This document shows, in pieces, positions 2,552 through 19,406 of a DNA stretch of 20,053 bases (the stretch's first letter is position 1; the number at the start of each line of letters is the position of its first letter). Position numbers and translations under genes: made by a program. Under the pieces are notes generated by a model that was given only the letters and a program-made list of their open reading frames with translations, searched no databases and had not been told where the DNA came from. The DNA is from a virus: positions 1 through 20,053 of IMG/VR virus record IMGVR_UViG_3300008963_000048. One strand, written 5' to 3'.

Positions 2552-3469
2552 TTACTCCTCATCCCCCCACTCATCAAGAATGTCAGAAATATCATCAGTT
2601 TGCGGTGCGGGTTCTTTCTTCTTAGAAACCTTCTTAGGCTCTTCAGCTTCCTGCTCCTCGACCGACTCTACTTCTTCCACAGGCTCTGCAGGCTTGCTAG
2701 CCTTTTTCGGCGCGGGCTTAGCCGGAGCTTCTGACTCTTCACTTTCGTTGCGTTCAAACTTACGCTCGCTGGTGTGAGTCTTGGCGTCTTGGCTGTCGCT
2801 GCGGCTCTTGATCTGCGCCCATTCATTCTCAGTCAGGGCACGGACCGCACGAAACATTAGCTTCGGCACAGGTGAGTTAGTGTCGAACTTCATCTCGGTG
2901 ACAACCTTGACTACATCGTAGCCAAAGCCAGAGAGCTTGCGTACATACTCCTGCAGTGACAGATAGTTCTCGCTGTCCACGTCACCAAAGATCGAAGTAG
3001 CTGGAATGTTCAATCCGTAAATGTCGCCGCCCATGTCGCCCTCAAGCACAACGGCAAGACGTGCAGAATACTTACAAGCCCGACCACCGCTAGCGCCTGA
3101 ACCTTTGACGTTCTGCGGGCAAGTCGCACACAGGTTGGACTGAGGCTCTGATACGTTTTCACTCGGTGCGTTGCCATCATCTGACCAGCAGGCAGGGATA
3201 GCCTTGACGCCCTCCTTGTATGAATCAGCGTAGAAAGTCCGCGCATAGCCCGGAGCTGACGCCACGATTACTAGCTTCATCGAACGGTCTTCATTGGTGG
3301 CAACCTGCTGGTCCCCGACCATCATGCGAAACACACTGCCCTTAATACTAATCCATTTTAGGCCGCCACCTGTTGCACCTAGTGCCCGTGCGGTATCGGA
3401 TAGATCGCCGCCACGAAGGTGTTCAGGCACGTTGGACGCGCCCTCGAAAAGTCCAATTTCGTTACTCAT
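2552..3469 (-). CDS. Probable single-stranded DNA-binding protein with zinc-ribbon cysteines and acidic tail
   Basis: The protein has 305 residues. The first 220 or so form a beta-rich globular domain with four cysteines, C94, C114, C117 and C132, spaced like a zinc ribbon. The last 75 residues are low-complexity Lys/Pro/Glu and end DDISDILDEWGDEE, a short acidic tail with one aromatic, as in phage and bacterial SSBs (T4 gp32, T7 gp2.5, E. coli SSB), where it binds replication partners. T4 gp32 also carries a structural zinc. The gene lies in the replication operon, two genes before the primase-helicase. I chose ATG 3469; the GTG one codon upstream leaves only 4 nt to GGAG. The SSB role is an inference from tail, zinc motif and context. 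Confidence 0.62.
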   Translation of the reverse strand: MSNEIGLFEGASNVPEHLRGGDLSDTARALGATGGGLKWISIKGSVFRMMVGDQQVATNEDRSMKLVIVASAPGYARTFYADSYKEGVKAIPACWSDDGNAPSENVSEPQSNLCATCPQNVKGSGASGGRACKYSARLAVVLEGDMGGDIYGLNIPATSIFGDVDSENYLSLQEYVRKLSGFGYDVVKVVTEMKFDTNSPVPKLMFRAVRALTENEWAQIKSRSDSQDAKTHTSERKFERNESEESEAPAKPAPKKASKPAEPVEEVESVEEQEAEEPKKVSKKKEPAPQTDDISDILDEWGDEE

Positions 3470-3797: not shown

Positions 3798-3986
3798 TTA
3801 CTCGTAAATTCTCATCTGATTGTTGACGTATTCCACAAGGCTCTCTCGCTTGAAAAACACCTTCTTGCCGAGCTGCACAAACGGCAGCGCGCCTTCCTTA
3901 CGGAGCTTATGTAGGGCTGACGGGGAGAGACGCAAAAACTGCGCCGCCTCCTTAGTCGTCAGAAGCTCCAACTCGTTTTCATTCAC
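3798..3986 (-). CDS. Small helix-turn-helix protein, excisionase/MerR-like (HTH_17 type)
   Basis: This 62-residue protein is essentially one winged-helix domain. LLTTKEAAQFLRLSPSALHKLRKEGALPFVQLGKKVFFKRESLVEYV matches, piece by piece, the pattern of excisionase-type HTH_17 domains: 'TTKEAAQFL' helix, 'SPSALHKLRKEG' recognition helix, then a basic wing. The start is GTG 3986, sharing one base with the TAG stop of the preceding gene; an ATG 4 nt further in is out of frame. It could be an excisionase, but no integrase is in the window, so a DNA-binding regulator or replication accessory factor is equally likely. Confidence 0.85.
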   Translation of the reverse strand: MNENELELLTTKEAAQFLRLSPSALHKLRKEGALPFVQLGKKVFFKRESLVEYVNNQMRIYE

Positions 3987-7005: not shown

Positions 7006-8930
7006 TTTTCTGCTGATCCGTAGTCTTTGGCAGTGCCGCCTTCTGACCATGTTACCAGCTCAGGCCACCACGACACACCAGAGCGCATGATGCCTTGCAT
7101 GAACTCAAGCGCCGCCTCAGCCTCAGCTTCATCAACGACCAATATGATTTCATCGTGCACAGTGTGTGCAACAGGGTAGTGCTTCTGAACCTTCAGCATC
7201 ATGTCCGCCATCGCTTCACGGGCAAGGTGCTGCACAATGTTCTCAGTCACTTTCCCAGCGTATATGCGGGCTTTCTTGCGACCGTGGCCGTATACCCACT
7301 CGGTGCGCCTAGTCTCTTCGTTGGTTTCTTGCCTTAGATCAGGGTAACGAATCATGCCAAGCGGCGTTTTAATCCCACCTTCAGCAGTCTTGCACAAGCC
7401 CCACGGGTCGATTTTGATGTCGTGGTGCCCGTAGTAAATGTCAGATAGCCGGTCATGGCAGGTGCGCCAGCCCGAGGCGATGCACCCGTATTCGTTTCGC
7501 CATTTTGAAACGATTTCCTCTGACTCTTTTAGGTTAAGGTCCACGCCGCCCATCAGCCTTGCGACTTTCTGAAACGTAGCAGCCCCGGCGCCAAACCCAA
7601 GCCCAAGGTGTGCAACCTTGCCTACCTGCCTCTCAGTCTTAGTGACATCGGCTTCATCTTTCTTGTAGAGCTTGCTGGCAAAGTCTTTATACAAGTCAGC
7701 CTTTTCCGGGTCGTCTATAAACAACTGCATGCTGACTGGCTCTTTCCACAAAAAGTGGTTCACTCGCAGCTCAATGCCAGACAAGTCAGCGACCACGACT
7801 CTTTTGCCGGGCGGTGCCAACAGGCACTTTCGTAGCGCGTCCGACGGTTTAGGCTTCTTAGGACTGACTCGCGGCAGGTTTTGCTGGTTCATCTTCATGG
7901 TGCCCGACCAGCGTCCGGTAGTATCTGCGCCGTAGTAGCTCAGCGCGACAGGCATTTTGCCTTTGGCAGCACGACCGCAGCTTAAGAACTGCCCGATGCG
8001 CGATTCAAGGATGGTACTTTTTACGCCAAGCCGGGCACAGGCTGCGGCAGCCACCTCAATGTCCTCATGCTCTTGCAAAGCAAGGAACTCCTCGTCAGTC
8101 TTGGCGAGCGCCGGGATTTGCTTCTCAGGGTTAGACGGCGACTCCTTCATCGGCACCGGCACGCCCTTGCTCTCTAGGAACTTGGCAAACTTCGGTGCGC
8201 TGGCCAGAACCTTTTTGGCAGCCTCAACACGCTCGTCTTCAGACATCAAGGTATCCACCTCGGGAAGTAAAACTCTTGACACACCTATCAGCGACTCACG
8301 CTGCGCTTCTTTGATCTCCAGCAGTGTGCGCTCAAGTAGCGCTTCGTCCATATCAAACTGCGGCTCGACTAGCATGCGGATAGTCATGTCAATCAGCTTG
8401 AGTTCTCTAGCGCCAAGCCTCGAAGCCAGCTTGTTGAAAATCCCAGCACACAAGTCAGTATCAACAACGTTGTACTTGCGCATGGACTCAATCTCGTCAG
8501 CCGTAAAATCAGCCAGCTTCTTGCCCTTAGTGTTAGTCGCTTCGAGGTCTAGCTTGGCACCGAGGTCGAGCGCAGCAGCAACTTTTTTTAGTGACAGCCC
8601 GGAAGTTTTGGCGTACCCGAGCGCGCGAGCAATAGCCATCGTGCAGCCCCACGCTTTTGGCTTAATTCCAAACCGCCAAGCGCAGATCATCGCGTCAAAG
8701 CCTGCCATGTTGTGCCCGATTAGCATTACGTCTGAGAAGTCAGTGCAGTCAACCCATGCCTGAATATCTATTTCACCGAACAACACGAACGTCTCACCGT
8801 CGTTGCCTTCTTTAATGGCAACCGATTGAATCTCAGTCTCAGGGTGCATGACATATTCAACGGGGTGAATCTTGGTCAGGCTGTGGTCTTTCGACCAAAA
8901 AGTTTCAAAGTCTAAATAGACTGGCTTCAC
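7002..8930 (-). CDS. Family A DNA polymerase with 3'-5' exonuclease domain, Leu at the Phe762 position
   Basis: At 642 residues it is a short phage-type Pol I. The exonuclease domain shows YLDFETF (D7, E9), LIGHNMAGFDA and YNVVDTD. The polymerase domain has motif A VVVADLSGIELR (D382), motif B RQVGKVAHLGLGFG (R434, K438) and motif C HDE (592-594). The residue equal to E. coli Phe762 is L442, and Tyr766 is replaced by F446. Residue 762 affects nucleotide selection and processivity, and its variants (F, Y, L) split viral polymerases into clades. No 5'-3' exonuclease domain is present. The start is GTG 8930 with AAGGAG 7 nt upstream. It is the replicative polymerase of this phage; the nuclease gene overlaps its stop by 4 nt. 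Confidence 0.97.
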   Translation of the reverse strand: MKPVYLDFETFWSKDHSLTKIHPVEYVMHPETEIQSVAIKEGNDGETFVLFGEIDIQAWVDCTDFSDVMLIGHNMAGFDAMICAWRFGIKPKAWGCTMAIARALGYAKTSGLSLKKVAAALDLGAKLDLEATNTKGKKLADFTADEIESMRKYNVVDTDLCAGIFNKLASRLGARELKLIDMTIRMLVEPQFDMDEALLERTLLEIKEAQRESLIGVSRVLLPEVDTLMSEDERVEAAKKVLASAPKFAKFLESKGVPVPMKESPSNPEKQIPALAKTDEEFLALQEHEDIEVAAAACARLGVKSTILESRIGQFLSCGRAAKGKMPVALSYYGADTTGRWSGTMKMNQQNLPRVSPKKPKPSDALRKCLLAPPGKRVVVADLSGIELRVNHFLWKEPVSMQLFIDDPEKADLYKDFASKLYKKDEADVTKTERQVGKVAHLGLGFGAGAATFQKVARLMGGVDLNLKESEEIVSKWRNEYGCIASGWRTCHDRLSDIYYGHHDIKIDPWGLCKTAEGGIKTPLGMIRYPDLRQETNEETRRTEWVYGHGRKKARIYAGKVTENIVQHLAREAMADMMLKVQKHYPVAHTVHDEIILVVDEAEAEAALEFMQGIMRSGVSWWPELVTWSEGGTAKDYGSAEK

Positions 8931-11903: not shown

Positions 11904-11915
11904 GTCTAATTAGAC
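11904..11915. repeat. Palindrome GTCTAATTAGAC, copy 1
   Basis: This is a perfect 12-bp palindrome in the 40-bp gap before the zinc-ribbon gene, 10 nt upstream of its ATG. TTGAAT lies 17 nt before TCTAAT on the minus strand here, so this one copy could double as a -10 box; the other copies lack such a -35. Confidence 0.95.
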
Positions 11916-12669: not shown

Positions 12670-12906
12670 TTAAGAGTCTCCCATAATAACCCAGAAAGTA
12701 TCAGTATCAACCCTTGTACCTACATCGGGCAGACTACCGCCCGGCTCAAAGAACAAAAGTTTGGCTAGTCGGTCAGCAATCTCGGGCTCGATCTCACTAA
12801 GATCACAAGCTCGCTCATTGCCGTCACGCCAGTGGGCGGGCGAAACACCCAGCCCCTTGCGCTCTAGCCACCACTCTCCATCAGAATCTCTGAATACTCT
12901 CAGCAT
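12670..12906 (-). CDS. Hypothetical 78-residue protein
   Basis: The N-terminus, MLRVFRDSDGEWWLERKGLG, suggests a small beta-sheet domain with aromatic residues, followed by a helix EIADRLAKLL and a short strand DTFWVIMGDS. No family is recognised. ATG 12906 shares its first base with the TAA stop of the DUF3150-like gene, and no SD is visible, so it depends on translational coupling. It is the cistron right after the AAA+/VWA/DUF3150 set. Confidence 0.7.
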   Translation of the reverse strand: MLRVFRDSDGEWWLERKGLGVSPAHWRDGNERACDLSEIEPEIADRLAKLLFFEPGGSLPDVGTRVDTDTFWVIMGDS

Positions 12907-13766
12907 TAGAACGAAAAAGAATCAAGCACGGAGTTAACCCGCGCACGCACGTCATCACGAATCTCTTTACTCTCTTTCAACTCATCAACCTCCACATGTT
13001 TAATGGCGTTCTCTGCTTCGTCAGCCATAGCCTCGATAGCCTGATCTTTGGTTAGATTCAAAGCACGCACCGAAGCGATAGTCTCTGCAAAGTTCTCAAG
13101 TATGTTGTTACGGAAGCGCTTACGCTCCCCGTCCTCGGTGTCAGTGAACCGCTCGGACAAATGCCGCAGCGAGCTGAGGATACGCTCACGCACATCATTC
13201 ATGGCGTTCTCAAGTCGTTGCTGGTACTCACGCTCATAGCGCTCACGTATTTCCTCCATAGCTTCATTACCAACATCGACGCGGAAGTCTCCGGTCTCGG
13301 GGATTGGCAAGAAGGCTGCGTTGAATCGGAACTTGTTGGCGATTTCTTGCACATCGGGATACTCCTCACGATCAAACATCTGACCAAGCTGAAACGCCTG
13401 CATGCTGATCAAGGTGGGGTAGGCATCGAGAAAGGCTTGCACCTTCTCGTTAAACAGCTGCTCATGCTCGTCCAGCCCCTGCTTGAACTCAAAGAACTTA
13501 TCCGTAGTGACAAGGCGTGGCCCATAATCTGACCACGGCAGTGTGCGCGAAGCAACCCAGTTACGAATCATGGCAGCGTGCTTGACCACCTCGTCTAACT
13601 CTTTGACGCCGGGCAGTAGATTCTTGTTAACGCGCGATGCCTGCTGGCTTGCATGCTTGCTGGTGTTCACCTCGTCTGTCACACCCTTGTCGAGCTTACG
13701 GGCTGTCCAAGTGCTGATTGAAAGGTCAACTAGCATGGCGCTGGATGAAATAGATACGTTACTCAT
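12906..13766 (-). CDS. DUF3150-like protein, third member of the AAA+/VWA set
   Basis: The start is ATG 13766 (MSNVSISSSAMLVDLSISTW), which has AAGGAGTACAGCA in front; a longer ORF reads back into the VWA gene. The 286 residues start with a short strand region containing SISTWTARKLDKGVTDEV and K/R clusters, then are almost entirely helical, with a long charged region near 175-210 (EEIRERYEREYQQRLENAMN). This architecture, together with the two genes before it, fits DUF3150, a phage protein that travels with MoxR-like ATPases and VWA proteins. Its function is not known; it may be the substrate adaptor or structural partner of the AAA+ ring. It starts 14 nt after a palindrome. Confidence 0.72.
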   Translation of the reverse strand: MSNVSISSSAMLVDLSISTWTARKLDKGVTDEVNTSKHASQQASRVNKNLLPGVKELDEVVKHAAMIRNWVASRTLPWSDYGPRLVTTDKFFEFKQGLDEHEQLFNEKVQAFLDAYPTLISMQAFQLGQMFDREEYPDVQEIANKFRFNAAFLPIPETGDFRVDVGNEAMEEIRERYEREYQQRLENAMNDVRERILSSLRHLSERFTDTEDGERKRFRNNILENFAETIASVRALNLTKDQAIEAMADEAENAIKHVEVDELKESKEIRDDVRARVNSVLDSFSF

Positions 13767-13780
13767 TGCTGTACTCCTTA

Positions 13781-13792
13781 GTCTAATTAGAC
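13781..13792. repeat. Palindrome GTCTAATTAGAC, copy 2
   Basis: The palindrome extends to 16 bp (TA on one side, TA on the other; 13779-13794). It overlaps the TAG stop of the VWA gene and lies 14 nt before the start of the DUF3150-like gene. Confidence 0.97.
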
Positions 13793-14949
13793 TACTTGAT
13801 ATGAATTGTCTTGCCGTAGGGAGACCGGTTGTCGCTTGTAGATACCCACAAAGTAGGCTCGTTGAAATTTGGCCAGTCACCGTAGATGTGGCCGTCAGTC
13901 AGCATCAGCACCAGCTCAGGCTTAGTGCCCATCGCATCGACGAACTGCTTGACGCATGTTGGGTCAGTGCCGCCACCGCCCACAGGTTTGGTTGAGCCAG
14001 TCAGTGACTCGTACTCACCGGGCATGTACACCTCGTCGCGCTCAACTTCTGTGCCCCAGTAGAGTAAGTGCATGCGCTCAGGTGGCATCTCTTGTGTAAC
14101 AGCCACGACCTCAGACAGGAACAGGTTGAGCATGTAAGGGTCAATAGAGCCCGAAGTATCAACCGCGACCACGATAGGGCCGATAGACTCAGAGAACGGC
14201 GTGGGCATGTACAGCCCATCAGCCAGCCAGCGTCGGTTCGGCCTGCGCCACGTGCTGCTGTCACGACCAGCGCACACAGACTGTACGAACTCTTGTAGCT
14301 GCTCACGCCAGTTCACCTCCGGCTCAGAAATAGCACCGATGTCACGGTTGGTATTGCCCTTGAGTTTGCCAGCCAGAATGTCGCCCTGCCGGGCAGCCTG
14401 ATCGACCGCTTGCTCCAGCTCCTTGCGCTCCTGCTCACTCATCGACTTGGCTTGGTCAAAGCCGTGCTCGTCAAAGCTGCCCTGACCATCACCGCCATCG
14501 CCCGACTCTTGCTGCTGCTTGAGGTCGTCATAAACCTGCTTGGCATCCCAGCCACGATACTTCGAGTCAAGACACAGATCGACGTCAGGCAATGCAATAA
14601 CGTGGTTCAGCGGGTCGAGGTCAACGATCTGCTGGTTAATAACATAGTCACACGCCATGTTAGTCAGCTTGGGGTCCTCCTTCCACAGCTTCTGCCATGT
14701 AGTCATGTGCTTGTAGAGCACGTGGAAATTCTCGTGTGCCACGACAAAGTTGAGCTGCTTCTCGGTGAGCGTGTCCATGAACTCTTTGCCATAGAACTTG
14801 TCACGCCCGTCGGTGTACGCAGTAGGCACACCGTCTTTCACTCGGCTCTCACCAAGCATGATGATGCCTGATAACAGCGCGAACTCCTTGGATCGCATCA
14901 GCGTAATGTGGCTGCGCTGCAGCCTCTGCTCGGGTGTCAGGTTACTCAT
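13792..14949 (-). CDS. VWA domain protein with N-terminal HExxH metallopeptidase-like domain (DUF2201 type)
   Basis: The protein has 385 residues. Residues 60-81 contain VVAHENFHVLYKH, a HExxH zinc motif (H72, E73, H76). A Gly/Asp/Gln-rich linker (about 145-165) follows. The C-terminal VWA domain has an intact MIDAS: D264-T-S266-G-S268, T328 in GGGGTDP, and D352 in MLTDGH. This is the DUF2201_N plus VWA-like layout. VWA partners of MoxR AAA+ ATPases (CobT, NorD, ViaA, BchD) bind metal-dependent targets and deliver them to the ATPase for remodelling or metal insertion. It starts at ATG 14949 behind AAGGAGTACAGCA and follows the ATPase gene by 27 bp. Its stop lies inside a palindrome. Protease activity is untested. 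Confidence 0.9.
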   Translation of the reverse strand: MSNLTPEQRLQRSHITLMRSKEFALLSGIIMLGESRVKDGVPTAYTDGRDKFYGKEFMDTLTEKQLNFVVAHENFHVLYKHMTTWQKLWKEDPKLTNMACDYVINQQIVDLDPLNHVIALPDVDLCLDSKYRGWDAKQVYDDLKQQQESGDGGDGQGSFDEHGFDQAKSMSEQERKELEQAVDQAARQGDILAGKLKGNTNRDIGAISEPEVNWREQLQEFVQSVCAGRDSSTWRRPNRRWLADGLYMPTPFSESIGPIVVAVDTSGSIDPYMLNLFLSEVVAVTQEMPPERMHLLYWGTEVERDEVYMPGEYESLTGSTKPVGGGGTDPTCVKQFVDAMGTKPELVLMLTDGHIYGDWPNFNEPTLWVSTSDNRSPYGKTIHIK

Positions 14950-14970
14950 TGCTGTACTCCTTGTTGAGTA

Positions 14971-14982
14971 GTCTAATTAGAC
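14971..14982. repeat. Palindrome GTCTAATTAGAC, copy 3
   Basis: The palindrome supplies the TAA stop codon of the AAA+ ATPase gene (GTC TAA) and lies 21 nt before the VWA start codon. Confidence 0.97.
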
Positions 14983-16014
14983 CGCCCAGCTGTTCTCGCG
15001 AGCCCAGTCAGTGAACGACTTGGACTTGACCACAACCGAAGCGGCGCTGCTACGCATAACGTTTTGCACAAACATGAACTGCACTTCGCGTGGCAACCGC
15101 ACAAGGTATGTCATCCATGCGTCGATGTTCTCAGCGGTCATGCGAGTCACTGCACCAAGCGACAGAATCACACAGGCGATGGGCGACTCAGGCACCTGCA
15201 CAGTGTCAGGCTTCTCGATGATGGCTTTGAACGGCGGCAGTGCGTCAGCCACGGATAGAAACGCCTGCATGTCACGGGCGGCAGACTCACCGATAGTGCC
15301 AGACAACGCTGAAATCATCACATCATCGCTCAACGCAAGACGCTGCGAAACAATGTGCGAGGCGTGAGCAAGAGAGCGGGGTGTGACAAACGCGGTCTGC
15401 TGCTGACGTGGGTTGAATATGTACGGGTTGTCAGCCACGCCATCAGGGTCATCAGCATAGCTAGCAAGACAGTGCGGGTACTCTTTGACCCAAGCCATCA
15501 CCGTGGGCTCGACGCCATGATTGACGCCCCACTCGACCCACTCGTCAGCATCAGGCTTACGAACTGTCAGGAATGTCACACGGTTGCGGGCATGCGCCTG
15601 CAGCATGTCGCCCACACCATCGCTTGCCATGTTGGTCGTGCCAAACACCACAGAACCCTCGGGCAGCTTGTGGTTGCCGATGCGGTGCTCAAGCAACAGG
15701 GTCAGCAGGGCGTTCTGCACAGGGCGCATGGCCTTGCCAATCTCGTCGAGCATAATGATCAGCGGCTCGTCACCGACGAACATCTTGTTGGGCACAAACT
15801 CAACAGAGTCATTGACACGCGGCATCTGAAGATCGCCAAGGTCAAGCAACGCACAATCAATGTAGCGTGGCTCCATATCGCACTGATCACGCAGTGTTTT
15901 GAGCATGGCGGACTTACCGATGCCGGGCTCGCCCTGAAAGATGAATGTGTTGGTCTGCCCGCAGTTGCGAACAAGGTTGGCTGCGTCTTTAAGACTTACG
16001 GTTGTTGTCATCAT
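14977..16014 (-). CDS. MoxR/CobS-like AAA+ ATPase
   Basis: The protein has 345 residues. Walker A GEPGIGKS lies at 28-35, Walker B LIIMLDEIGK with D90/E91, sensor 1 VVFGTTN with N128, and Arg finger candidates R143/R145 in AHARNR. The insertion and helix order fit the MoxR/CobS branch, which forms hexamers that work with a VWA protein. Here the VWA gene follows directly, so a two-part chaperone or chelatase-like machine is the natural reading. The target is unknown: cobalamin insertion (as CobS/CobT) has no support, since no cobalt enzyme is nearby. ATG 16014 or 16011 can serve as start; 16014 has AAGGAG at 7 nt. Confidence 0.93.
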   Translation of the reverse strand: MMTTTVSLKDAANLVRNCGQTNTFIFQGEPGIGKSAMLKTLRDQCDMEPRYIDCALLDLGDLQMPRVNDSVEFVPNKMFVGDEPLIIMLDEIGKAMRPVQNALLTLLLEHRIGNHKLPEGSVVFGTTNMASDGVGDMLQAHARNRVTFLTVRKPDADEWVEWGVNHGVEPTVMAWVKEYPHCLASYADDPDGVADNPYIFNPRQQQTAFVTPRSLAHASHIVSQRLALSDDVMISALSGTIGESAARDMQAFLSVADALPPFKAIIEKPDTVQVPESPIACVILSLGAVTRMTAENIDAWMTYLVRLPREVQFMFVQNVMRSSAASVVVKSKSFTDWARENSWAV

Positions 16015-16042
16015 TGCTGTACTCCTTACTCCAAATTGAACA

Positions 16043-16054
16043 GTCTAATTAGAC
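16043..16054. repeat. Palindrome GTCTAATTAGAC, copy 4
   Basis: The repeat is extended to 16 bp (CA...TG, 16041-16056). It lies between the 87-residue gene and the AAA+ gene, 28 nt before the latter's start codon. Confidence 0.97.
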
Positions 16055-16060
16055 TGGCTG

Positions 16061-16324
16061 TTACTTTTCTGACTTGCCGGTGAACTTGCCCTGTAGGTAA
16101 GTGTTGTAGTCGATTAGCTCCATACGGGCGCGGGGAGCTTCAGACCAAACGTGGTGCATCGGCCCGCCATCCTCGCTTCTCCTAAACGTAACGTCATACC
16201 GCTCGGCTTTTTCTAGCGCTCGTAGAATTGTGGTCGCCTCACCGATTGGCAGCACGTAGTCCTCGAAGCCAAGCGTTACCTTGGCCATGTGCTTCTCCGG
16301 TGGTGCTGGTTTTCTATCAGTCAT
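16061..16324 (-). CDS. Hypothetical 87-residue protein, first cistron behind the strong promoter
   Basis: The product has a Pro/Lys-rich start, then a beta-rich core, VTLGFEDYVLPIGEATTILR, ALEKAERYDVTFRRSEDGG, and a basic C-terminus. It looks like a small alpha/beta fold with no recognised family. ATG 16324 has AGGAGTACAGC directly before it and follows the promoter at 16358-16386 with about 27 nt of leader. Being the first gene of the AAA+/VWA/DUF3150 unit, it may be an early host-interaction or regulatory protein; this is inference from position. Confidence 0.75.
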   Translation of the reverse strand: MTDRKPAPPEKHMAKVTLGFEDYVLPIGEATTILRALEKAERYDVTFRRSEDGGPMHHVWSEAPRARMELIDYNTYLQGKFTGKSEK

Positions 16325-16357: not shown

Positions 16358-16386
16358 ATTATCTCACATCTGAGTTGAAATGTCAA
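16358..16386 (-). promoter_or_regulatory. Strong sigma70-type promoter with inverted repeat in its spacer
   Basis: On the minus strand TTGACA (16386-16381) is a perfect -35, followed by a 17-bp spacer and GATAAT (16363-16358), a 5/6 match to the -10. The predicted start is near 16350, giving a leader of about 27 nt to ATG 16324. The spacer contains CTCAGATGTGAG (16363-16374), an inverted repeat reaching the edge of the -10, which could be an operator. It drives the 87-residue, AAA+, VWA and DUF3150 genes. Confidence 0.8.
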
Positions 16387-16393
16387 ATCAGTA

Positions 16394-16783
16394 CTATTCA
16401 AGGGGCTCACCCCCTTTGATTTCAATGTCGCGGTGGACGTCTACGATCTCATCTAAATAAAAGTCCACGTCATCTTGGCAATCCTCCTCAATCTCAACGT
16501 CGTCGTAGTCCTCGCCAATTCTCACAACTCGATAGCTAGCGTCGTGATTGCTATTCGCCCACCTAAGCATGTCATATACGGCGCCTACATCATTATAGCC
16601 TCGGTGCCATTTCACGTACTCATAGCAACCAACCAACACGCGCTCGTCTGCGCGCTCCCAATGCTCTGCCACATCTTCTCGCCAGAACTCAGGCTCTTTG
16701 AGTTTGTACGCCAAGATAAACTTATCGCACGCTTCCTTGGTCTTAAACCCCAAGGCAATGCCTACATCACTTCTGTATCCCAT
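16394..16783 (-). CDS. Hypothetical acidic protein of the phage MGYRSDV type
   Basis: The 129-residue protein opens MGYRSDVGIALGFKTKEACD, an opening I know from phage proteins of unknown function. Its central part (YEYVKWHRGYNDVGAVYDML) is mixed alpha/beta; residues 88-125 are very acidic (DYDDVEIEEDCQDDVDFYLD). Such acid patches occur in DNA-mimic anti-host proteins, though acidity alone proves nothing. ATG 16783 follows AGGAGTACAGCG and a palindrome 16 nt upstream. Upstream there is a terminator; no good promoter is seen between it and this gene, so it may rely on readthrough. Confidence 0.8.
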   Translation of the reverse strand: MGYRSDVGIALGFKTKEACDKFILAYKLKEPEFWREDVAEHWERADERVLVGCYEYVKWHRGYNDVGAVYDMLRWANSNHDASYRVVRIGEDYDDVEIEEDCQDDVDFYLDEIVDVHRDIEIKGGEPLE

Positions 16784-16799: not shown

Positions 16800-16811
16800 G
16801 TCTAATTAGAC
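16800..16811. repeat. Palindrome GTCTAATTAGAC, copy 5
   Basis: The palindrome lies in the gap between the terminator at 16815-16836 and the SD of the MGYRSDV-type gene, 16 nt before its start codon. Confidence 0.96.
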
Positions 16812-17226: not shown

Positions 17227-17702
17227 TCCGGCTCCTTTCTGCGCGTGTACTTCAGCAGATTTCGCTTCTCGTGCCAGTAGTAAGCGCGGTAGCACTCCAC
17301 GGGGTCATCAGAGACAAACTTGTACACGTCTGGCATAGCCAGTGCAAAACGGGCTTGCTTATCCGTTACTAAACCGGGCATAGCGCGCGGCACTATTTGC
17401 AAACAGCTGTTTAGTTTTTGCCATGACTTGTGGACTCTATTGTAGCGGCCCTCATACTCCATGGATAAATAGTGTAGAAGTACATACAGCCACTGGTAGT
17501 TCGCCTGAGACTGAGCCGCCCACTTCACGCTCGGGTGGTTCTTGTGCGTAGGTTTGTACACCGCGCAGGCCCATTCACTTTCATACAGGTGATGCACCGT
17601 GCTTAATATCTGCGCGCTCTCCAGCACCATCTTAACTACATGCTTATCACAGTGCATCTGCGCTGCTTTTGTCGGGTCATTGTCTAGTGCAAATATGTTC
17701 AT
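17193..17702 (-). CDS. Conserved phage protein of unknown function (169 residues)
   Basis: The N-terminus, MNIFALDNDPTKAAQMHCDK then HVVKMVLESAQILSTVHH, is very characteristic of a protein seen in many phages (CDKHVVKM...E.AQ.L). Later blocks are THKNHPSVKWAAQSQANYQW and DPVECYRAYYWHEKRNLLKY. The conserved His, Cys, Asp, Lys and Trp residues suggest an enzyme, but I know no activity. ATG 17702 overlaps the preceding stop as ATGA; it ends 34 nt inside the next gene. The link to the acidic gene before it suggests joint expression. Confidence 0.82.
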   Translation of the reverse strand: MNIFALDNDPTKAAQMHCDKHVVKMVLESAQILSTVHHLYESEWACAVYKPTHKNHPSVKWAAQSQANYQWLYVLLHYLSMEYEGRYNRVHKSWQKLNSCLQIVPRAMPGLVTDKQARFALAMPDVYKFVSDDPVECYRAYYWHEKRNLLKYTRRKEPEWLTKMRNQAK

Positions 17703-18352
17703 GCCTCAACCTCCTCAACCTCAACCTCAAAGGTCTCCTCAAACTCACGCGCCCACTCGATAAACATATCCTCGCTGGTCTGGTAGTCGTGCTCGTCGCA
17801 CATCCACCGATACAACTTAATCTCAACGTCGCGAATGTCCTCGTGTAGAAAGTTAGCCACGCGCTCCTCGTCCTCCTGCTCGCAGAGCTGCGCTGCAGTA
17901 AACAATGGCATACCGTGATATATCCCACCATCCAGAGTCTCATCTGAAATATCAAGATAATCAGAGTGCGGGTAGTCACACGTCCAGTCAGCGCAAGACA
18001 ATGGCCCTCGGCGGCTCAGTCGCGAGCCTACCCACAGCATCTCTCGGCGTAGCATCTCAGCGCACATCGGGAAGCGCTCACGTAACTCGTTAAGTTTCTC
18101 CTCGCTCATATTTTTGTACTCAAGTGTCGCATCGAGCGCCACACCATCGCCTTGTCCATAACTCAGCTGATAGATGACGTTACCCACGTCCCAGCCAGTG
18201 CCCTTGAGCCACTCGGTAGCAAGATCGCTCATGTCACTGTCCCAAGCCTCATCTATGAACTCGCAGTAGGTGTCTAGCCAGATGTCATACTCACGATCAA
18301 ACTCGTCGGGGTAGTGCTCCTTGAGCACGTCAATGTTTACTTGTGTTTTCAT
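17699..18352 (-). CDS. Acidic conserved phage hypothetical protein (217 residues)
   Basis: The protein is strongly acidic, with Trp/Asp/Glu-rich helices (DEFDREYDIWLDTYCEFIDE) and an acidic tail (EEFEETFEVEVEEVEA). Residues 54-75 contain WDVGNVIYQLSYGQGDGVAL, a 'LSYGQGDG' block that I have seen in phage proteins without a known role. It starts at ATG 18352 behind GGGAG, 20 nt after a palindrome. Its net charge invites comparison with DNA mimics, but no structural evidence supports that. Confidence 0.78.
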   Translation of the reverse strand: MKTQVNIDVLKEHYPDEFDREYDIWLDTYCEFIDEAWDSDMSDLATEWLKGTGWDVGNVIYQLSYGQGDGVALDATLEYKNMSEEKLNELRERFPMCAEMLRREMLWVGSRLSRRGPLSCADWTCDYPHSDYLDISDETLDGGIYHGMPLFTAAQLCEQEDEERVANFLHEDIRDVEIKLYRWMCDEHDYQTSEDMFIEWAREFEETFEVEVEEVEA

Positions 18353-18372
18353 CTTTCATCTCCCAGTCGTCA

Positions 18373-18384
18373 GTCTAATTAGAC
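18373..18384. repeat. Palindrome GTCTAATTAGAC, copy 6
   Basis: The repeat is extended to 16 bp (CA...TG, 18371-18386). It lies in the 43-bp gap between the SleB-type gene and the acidic 217-residue gene, 20 nt before the latter's start. Confidence 0.97.
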
Positions 18385-18395
18385 TGTTGTAATAA

Positions 18396-19144: not shown

Positions 19145-19406
19145 CGCTGTTCTCCTTAAGTTTTGATGGTGGTATCAACCCTATTAACTGCCCCTGAATA
19201 AGCCGATGCGCCGCTAACTCTAAATCATCGGCGGCAATGTCTTTTAGAGACACATCTGTGTTGTTGGATATATACATCGCTGCTTCAAACAGCACATCAG
19301 CCCGCCCGTGGTTACTACCCAACCGCTGCAACGCGTCATCAGGCAGGTTTACCACCCACGGCTCAATCAGATAGATCAACGCAGCCGCCTCGGGTCTCAG
19401 GTTCAT
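19134..19406 (-). CDS. Hypothetical 90-residue protein, paralogue of the 76-residue gene downstream
   Basis: ALIYLIEPWVVNLPDDALQR, ..., FEAAMYISNNTDVSLKDIAA, DDLELAAHRLIQGQL aligns with the 76-residue protein: LIEPWV, a D..L..R helix, 'NNT', and a final LE-AA helix. About 20 extra residues form the C-terminal tail. ATG 19406 overlaps the preceding stop as ATGA. Duplication followed by divergence, with a small gene between, explains the pair. Confidence 0.76.
   Translation of the reverse strand: MNLRPEAAALIYLIEPWVVNLPDDALQRLGSNHGRADVLFEAAMYISNNTDVSLKDIAADDLELAAHRLIQGQLIGLIPPSKLKENSDDQ

Follow-up and report, generated by a model that had tools for sequence, protein, structure and literature searches.

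A MoxR ATPase, an HExxH-VWA protein and a DUF3150-like protein are encoded by a linked gene triad of phages and plasmids

Introduction

For what purpose does a phage carry a MoxR-type ATPase together with two companion proteins? In a 20,053-base virus record (IMG/VR IMGVR_UViG_3300008963_000048, analysed over its whole length and called the window), a promoter-led unit, whose genes are all on the minus strand, encodes a short open reading frame (ORF), a MoxR-like AAA+ ATPase, a VWA protein with an HExxH site and a DUF3150-like protein; the last three genes are called the triad. The MoxR-VWA pair is already known from phages (N4 gp24/gp25 and jumbo phages), and no tested function for it was found in the literature. 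What is new here is the DUF3150-like gene as the constant third partner, including its occurrence on plasmids. The three genes probably build one machine. We favour the reading of a MoxR-VWA-metallopeptidase machine that belongs to mobile elements, includes DUF3150 as a subunit, and would be made early and act on an intracellular target, and we put the probability of this whole reading at about 0.5. In N4-like phages the pair is part of the core gene set, and over 600 phage records contain the VWA member. As the pair and its fixed third partner also occur on plasmids, their function should suit an infecting phage as well as a plasmid.

Linkage of the three genes on phages and plasmids

In the complete phage loci examined, the MoxR and VWA genes were close together. 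The DUF3150 gene was found with both partners in seven phage contigs, namely the window, G001, G002, G003, G005, G006, and G008. The order MoxR-VWA-DUF3150 was kept in the close relatives G001, G002, G006, and G008 and also in G003 and G005, the latter with additional space between the triad genes. Most of the relatives are metagenomic fragments, and their genes were called by a simple custom caller. All three genes were present, furthermore, in the distant phage G012 and in the cyanophage MinM2. In bacterial bins the order was MoxR-DUF3150-VWA, as exemplified by one bin contig. The same order was observed on plasmids: of 42 plasmid records that contained DUF3150, at least 41 had both partners as well, all on one strand and arranged as MoxR-DUF3150-VWA. 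This linkage was read by comparing the search coordinates of MoxR, VWA, and DUF3150 by eye; the partners in the 42nd record were not among the matches listed, and six plasmid regions were inspected in detail. Phages and plasmids alike serve the triad as mobile carriers, and the plasmid three-gene cassette is small enough for laboratory expression and testing.

The three genes had been described beforehand as a joint unit, and the constant order in the relatives and the linkage on plasmids and in phages bear this out. It had also been stated that members occurring independently of each other would speak against a joint machine. Such independence was found in part. The MoxR-VWA pair often occurs without DUF3150, which was not detected near the pair in N4, Kc283, D505, TM27B, phage G, Pseudomonas phage 30-3, S-TIM5, or rV5 (in the region read), and one chromosomal DUF3150 gene stands alone. 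A profile comparison for hidden DUF3150 analogues beside the pair in the pair-only phages, with MinM2 as the positive control, yielded none. Two further loci are fragmentary, as the DUF3150 locus of L108 is cut by the contig end and L109 holds only DUF3150 and VWA fragments. In the tree of VWA proteins, which has several long branches, the triad-bearing sequences clustered beyond chance, with approximately three changes needed.

The three proteins

The preliminary description had named the central genes as a MoxR ATPase, a VWA protein with both an HExxH site and a metal ion-dependent adhesion site (MIDAS), and a DUF3150-like protein, and profiles, motifs, and a fold match agree with it. Judged from sequence, the MoxR-type protein and the VWA protein are homologs of N4 gp24 and gp25, respectively. 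The MoxR gene (14977..16014, minus strand) matched the AAA_5 profile at 27.5 bits (cut-off 22, 3.5e-6) and phrog_1297 at 5.7e-55, and its product has a Walker A motif, GEPGIGKS, at 28 and a Walker B motif, IIMLDE, at 86. Two arginines, R145 and R213, were invariant in 15 phage sequences and are candidates for finger- or sensor-type residues. A profile made from 15 phage MoxR sequences matched the AAA region of Midasin/Rea1 at 5e-35; PDB sequence searches with the single MoxR and the single VWA sequence as queries gave no significant match. The predicted ATPase would assemble into an AAA+ ring and hydrolyse ATP.

In the second gene (13792..14949, minus strand), a DUF2201 metallopeptidase domain is fused to a VWA domain. 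The protein scored 108.8 bits with DUF2201_N (4.7e-31), 62 bits with DUF2201 (7.9e-17), and 7e-83 with phrog_1314. It carries HENFH at 72 and the MIDAS core D264-T-S-G-S268. Relatives were found in 647 phage records. Residue by residue, H72, E73, H76, H81, and D101 were invariant in 14 divergent phage VWA proteins, and so were D264, S266, S268, T328, and D352; in a wider set of 24 divergent VWA proteins, all had the MIDAS core DxSxS and 23 had HExxH. The AlphaFold model (predicted local distance difference test, pLDDT, 75) matched VWA domains in PDB, including the MDN1 MIDAS-UBL complex, with weak E-values. The conservation of HExxH hints that the VWA protein may cut proteins, and the chaperone-protease character suggested for the unit earlier fits the conserved HExxH and MIDAS sites. 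As a separate observation, phrog_1314 bears the name 'HNH endonuclease', and HNH or homing endonuclease is also the name given in many deposited phage records. Since the DUF2201 metallopeptidase-VWA domains show no HNH, this label looks like a propagated misannotation.

The third gene (12906..13766, minus strand) matched PF11348 at 6.4e-4. Its DUF3150 score of 19.6 bits is under the curated Pfam cut-off of 24.9, and the protein is therefore named DUF3150-like; a chromosomal homolog (L107) exceeds that cut-off. The AlphaFold model (pLDDT 81) agreed with a predicted phage DUF3150 protein in BFVD at a template modelling score of 0.81. Although the reading frame opens further upstream, a ribosome-binding site supports the ATG at 13766 as the start and not the upstream GTG (13880). 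Homologs occur in phages, bacterial bins, and plasmids, and no mention of DUF3150 was found in the literature searched.

The promoter and the first ORF

A consensus promoter had been proposed to lead the unit. A sigma70-type promoter, TTGACA-17-GATAAT with TG before the -10 element, was located at 16358..16386 on the minus strand and matches the consensus at 11 of 12 positions. The first gene 3' of it is an 87-aa ORF (16061..16324, minus strand), for which Pfam and PHROG gave zero matches, so that its family is unassigned by either; MoxR, the HExxH-VWA protein, and the DUF3150-like protein follow in this order. Orthologs of the 87-aa ORF were present in G001, G002, and G008, and a partial one in G006. 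The proposal of a leading promoter is strengthened by its near-identity in the relatives, as the block TTGACATTTCAACTCA-n-GAGATAATAG is kept 5' of the orthologous ORF in G001, G002, and G008, with one substitution in G008. In these three relatives, the ORFs behind the conserved block are only 45-70% identical.

A proposed early machine and its target

How might the three proteins work together? In the favoured reading, the VWA domain would use its MIDAS site to couple a MoxR AAA+ ring to a target. The zincin-like HExxH domain, which is fused to this VWA domain, would be poised to hold or cut the target. The DUF3150 protein is most likely a dedicated third subunit, serving as a target adaptor or scaffold. 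The machine would be made early, behind its own promoter in the palindrome-marked region, and would most likely remodel or cleave an intracellular protein early in establishment, and not assemble virions. This target may come from the host or be part of a phage/plasmid nucleoprotein complex.

An ATP-driven remodelling machine is the default reading, by analogy, because the architecture is common to NorQ-NorD, in which the VWA domain reaches into the pore of the ring with a finger and a linker is proposed to be twisted by ATP hydrolysis (PMC9976466, PMC13036017). The same principle of a MoxR/AAA_5 ring with a MIDAS-VWA partner is found in NorQ-NorD, RavA-ViaA, CobS-CobT, and Midasin/Rea1. These systems, unlike the window, have dedicated metalloenzyme or ribosome targets, and the parts of their accounts consulted note no HExxH peptidase. 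A close likeness is N4 gp24/gp25 and its Schitoviridae homologs, closely linked middle genes that are N4-like core genes and have the same MoxR + HExxH-VWA architecture; unlike the window, N4 has no DUF3150 partner near the pair. N4 gp24/gp25 are known as middle transcripts (PMC4193335). The triad of G002 is part of the early/replication block, and the structural genes are on the opposite strand from approximately 24 kb onward. An intracellular early target is preferred because of the plasmid triads, the position in the early/replication block, and the middle transcription in N4. The preliminary description had suggested that the unit inactivates a factor of the host or of a rival phage. This is possible; the plasmid triads speak for a target inside the cell and against virion assembly, and they single out no particular target.

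Several points weigh against this reading. Most of the plasmid records are from related Burkholderiales and are not independent. The chromosomal, divergent DUF3150 of L107 has no MoxR or VWA gene within 19 kb. The role given to the DUF3150 protein has linkage as its sole basis, and a PDB fold search with its model matched no solved fold. The early timing, moreover, is drawn from the gene position, the promoter, and N4. Finally, the VWA protein of a Paraburkholderia dioscoreae plasmid (L104 12911-14188) keeps MIDAS and has no HExxH, which suggests that the peptidase site may be dispensable in one lineage.

Alternative functions of the triad

The machine may instead act on the element's own DNA-bound complexes, that is, the replisome or the partition or transfer apparatus. 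DNA polymerase, helicase, or primase genes are neighbours in N4, Kc283, D505, TM27B, MinM2, and this phage group. On two Burkholderiaceae plasmids, type IV secretion system (T4SS) genes adjoin the triad downstream and PRTRC genes are found upstream, and on a third plasmid the triad is near PRTRC. Nevertheless, phage G and the Pseudomonas 30-3 phage have no such annotated neighbours, and the triad of a Variovorax plasmid is an isolated cassette amid unrelated genes. Gene neighbourhood by itself does not tell this role apart from action on a host target. We regard the role as possible but rather unlikely.

A dedicated counter-host weapon of mobile elements is a further, rather unlikely reading. 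Here, lytic phages and plasmids would make an unfoldase-protease cassette on entry; DUF3150 would recognise a host protein, for example a defence protein, which would then be extracted and cut.

Could the machine be a chaperone that helps to assemble and proteolytically mature structural proteins of the virion? Such a role was put forward for the pair of group 2.2 jumbo phages, with p618/p892 of Acidianus two-tailed virus (ATV) as the model (PMC7824862). These jumbo phages have the same N-terminal metallopeptidase-VWA fusion and MoxR pairing as the window; DUF3150 and plasmid occurrence do not figure in the part of that account consulted. ATV p618 is likewise a viral MoxR ATPase with an interacting VWA partner; it is a virion component and is stimulated by p892 (PMC4124505). 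The ATV system is without the peptidase domain, whereas the window has early-region genes with a peptidase domain and DUF3150. A system of the ATV type would be virus-restricted and lie in the virion or a structural module, and the triad departs from this in its plasmid and early-region occurrence. Plasmids, which have no virions, carry the same triad; in this phage group it is grouped with early/replication genes, not structural ones; and N4-like phages, Vibrio D505, and Rhizobium TM27B have the pair near a helicase or DNA polymerase gene. In S-TIM5, the pair adjoins genes annotated as virion structural, and some phages may use it in this way, which is a further point against the favoured reading. 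Because plasmids carry the triad and the G002 triad is grouped with replication genes, virion assembly is quite unlikely as the general role.

Superinfection exclusion, or defence of one element against incoming phages or plasmids, is more doubtful still. The triad is a portable three-gene cassette on phages and plasmids, and some published conflict systems contain MoxR-vWA modules (PMC7159879). The VMAP ternary systems among them likewise combine MoxR, vWA, and a third constant protein, at times with peptidase domains. They differ from the window in that the bpMoxR profile gave only 12.7 bits with its MoxR, below the 27-bit cut-off, and in that the third component here is DUF3150-like, the third component of the published ternary systems, a VMAP-type protein, being absent. 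NCBIfam and PADLOC searches returned nothing useful, and the PADLOC models gave no convincing match. On the Synechocystis plasmid pSYSA (L112 4955-7233), an adjacent MoxR-VWA pair stands beside toxin-antitoxin-like genes and a DUF262 gene, an arrangement that would suit a defence role.

A chaperone for metal or cofactor insertion of the NorQ-NorD or CobS-CobT type shares the ATPase/VWA pairing and the mechanism class, but it is highly improbable, given that no metalloenzyme target was recognised among the triad's neighbours in the window and that the fused HExxH and the phage/plasmid spread do not suggest a single common metalloenzyme.

Palindromes of the early region

What do the palindromes of this region contribute? 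The preliminary description placed the same palindrome between all genes of the unit and proposed that it controls the dosage of each gene individually. The three inner junctions do hold the palindrome AGTCTAATTAGACT: CAGTCTAATTAGACTG lies between the 87-aa ORF and MoxR (16041..16056), GTCTAATTAGAC between MoxR and VWA (14971..14982), and TAGTCTAATTAGACTA between VWA and DUF3150 (13779..13794), where it adjoins the ribosome-binding site AAGGAGT. At the two ends this does not hold, as the promoter precedes the 87-aa ORF, and the gene 3' of DUF3150 overlaps DUF3150 with the palindrome absent at that junction. The core GTCTAATTAGAC has 7 exact copies in the window, all intergenic by the custom gene calls. 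Exact and one-mismatch copies together number 8, compared to 0.02 expected from dinucleotide shuffles; the one-mismatch copy, at 8910, sits inside the DNA polymerase gene, in its first codons. The four exact copies outside the unit are 5' of a 174-aa endonuclease VII-like gene (11904..11915), a 129-aa ORF at 16394-16783 (16800..16811), a 217-aa ORF at 17699-18352 (18371..18386), and a 98-aa ORF at 19403-19699 (19713..19726). The usual place is right after the preceding stop, 11-21 nt ahead of the next start; some copies are not start-associated and lie before promoters or terminators or in non-coding stretches. All 15 copies in G002 fall within 2.1-11.7 kb, with zero in the other 51 kb. Individual dosage control is not supported, as the sites precede many unrelated early genes, promoters, and terminators, and triads of other phages have no palindromes: the triad-bearing G003 and G005 contigs and the MinM2 region read contained no CTAATTAG palindromes.

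The palindrome type differs between close relatives. Ahead of the same gene families (MoxR, VWA, DUF3150, the 174-aa gene, and others), G001 and G008 have TCCTAATTAGGA in place of GTCTAATTAGAC, and the type in G012 is GTCCTAATTAGGAC. The arm change is coordinated across nearly all sites of each genome, the exception being G002 with 2 TCC and 13 GTC copies. These TCC-type copies in a GTC-type genome (L015 5355-5383 and 8764-8777), one of which is 3 bp from a GTC-type copy, are possibly traces of a site-type switch. Single-mismatch copies were scanned with each genome's own palindrome type; of the 14, some of which are from related sites, 10 differ in the central four bases, 4 at the outermost pair, and 0 in the inner arms. 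Tracking of the triad phylogeny by palindrome type was rejected (approximately unbiased test, p = 0.005, six sequences), a result that recombination could also explain. The first early promoter of G001, G002, and G009 has palindromes 16, 16, and 10 bp 5' of its -35 element, respectively, and four copies in G012 lie 68-78 bp past the start of a -35 element.

The early-region spread, the coordinated arm changes, the mismatch pattern, and the copies before promoters and terminators favour the reading of the palindrome as a DNA operator for a predicted trans-acting, dimeric regulator. The alternative, an RNA hairpin at the ribosome-binding site that acts in translation or processing, is rather unlikely. 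Most copies are just 5' of the Shine-Dalgarno (SD) sequence, the stem forms in context for 46 of 66 copies, substitutions are seen at the central four bases and the outermost pair, and in three G001 copies the SD sequence is the 3' arm. However, most of the hairpins are weak when taken in isolation (-2.4 to -5.7 kcal/mol, reaching -8.0 only in G012), and the copies 5' of the -35 element in G001, G002, and G009 are not transcribed by that first early promoter. Moreover, copies stand directly ahead of terminators, and the outermost pair in G002 showed no pairing covariation by manual count. Hairpin promoters of the N4 style were rejected, as the sites stand directly before ribosome-binding sites. 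In a 2666-aa protein of G002, no RNA polymerase match was found.

Taken as DNA operators, the palindromes look like a layer separate from the machine, a phage-group-specific control of the early region. Because close relatives differ in their arms in a coordinated way, the arrays are a natural starting point for finding their regulator. A candidate for an autoregulated operator-binding protein is the product of the first early gene, which encodes homologous proteins of 170-183 aa in G002 (L029 2229-2762), G001 (L005 168-680), and G009 (L031 2507-3058, minus strand). The gene stands behind a promoter and palindrome, and in G002 and G009 a palindrome and terminator also follow it. A conserved stretch of the product differs between palindrome types; the protein had no family match and no homologs beyond G001/G002/G009. 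A Psq-type helix-turn-helix (HTH) ORF of the window (PF05225, 12492-12710) is unlikely to be the operator-binding protein, since it was not detected in G002 or G008.

Among known arrays, the start-associated sequences (SAS) and extended start-associated sequences (ESAS) of Cluster K mycobacteriophages resemble most of the present sites in being start-associated repeats in the non-structural half, with an inverted-repeat consensus that varies by subcluster (PMC3203893). The inverted repeats of ESAS are imperfect, 17 bp long, and divided by a spacer, whereas the window has a compact 12-16 bp perfect palindrome that also stands before promoters and terminators. Cluster O mycobacteriophages also have many dyad-symmetric intergenic sites, 17-bp palindromes (PMC4351075); their arms are invariant and approximately one third are inside genes, whereas here the arms vary between close relatives and nearly all sites are intergenic in the early region. 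Mycobacteriophage stoperators are asymmetric, transcription-oriented, and tied to a repressor and lysogeny, and the symmetric window sites do not fit them. Integrase or repressor families were not among the Pfam families listed for G002, a possibly incomplete genome with custom gene calls.

Other genes of the window

Replication-region genes at 3463, 3780, 9169, 9534, and 9716 have a near-identical ribosome-binding block of the TAAGGAGATCAGTGATGAGTA type, without palindromes. A second small DNA-binding ORF, in addition to the Psq-type one, is excisionase-like (HTH_17, 3798-3986). The early region also encodes a pyrimidine-dimer glycosylase-like protein (PF03013, 17193-17702) and a SleB-like cell wall hydrolase (PF07486, 18396-18785).

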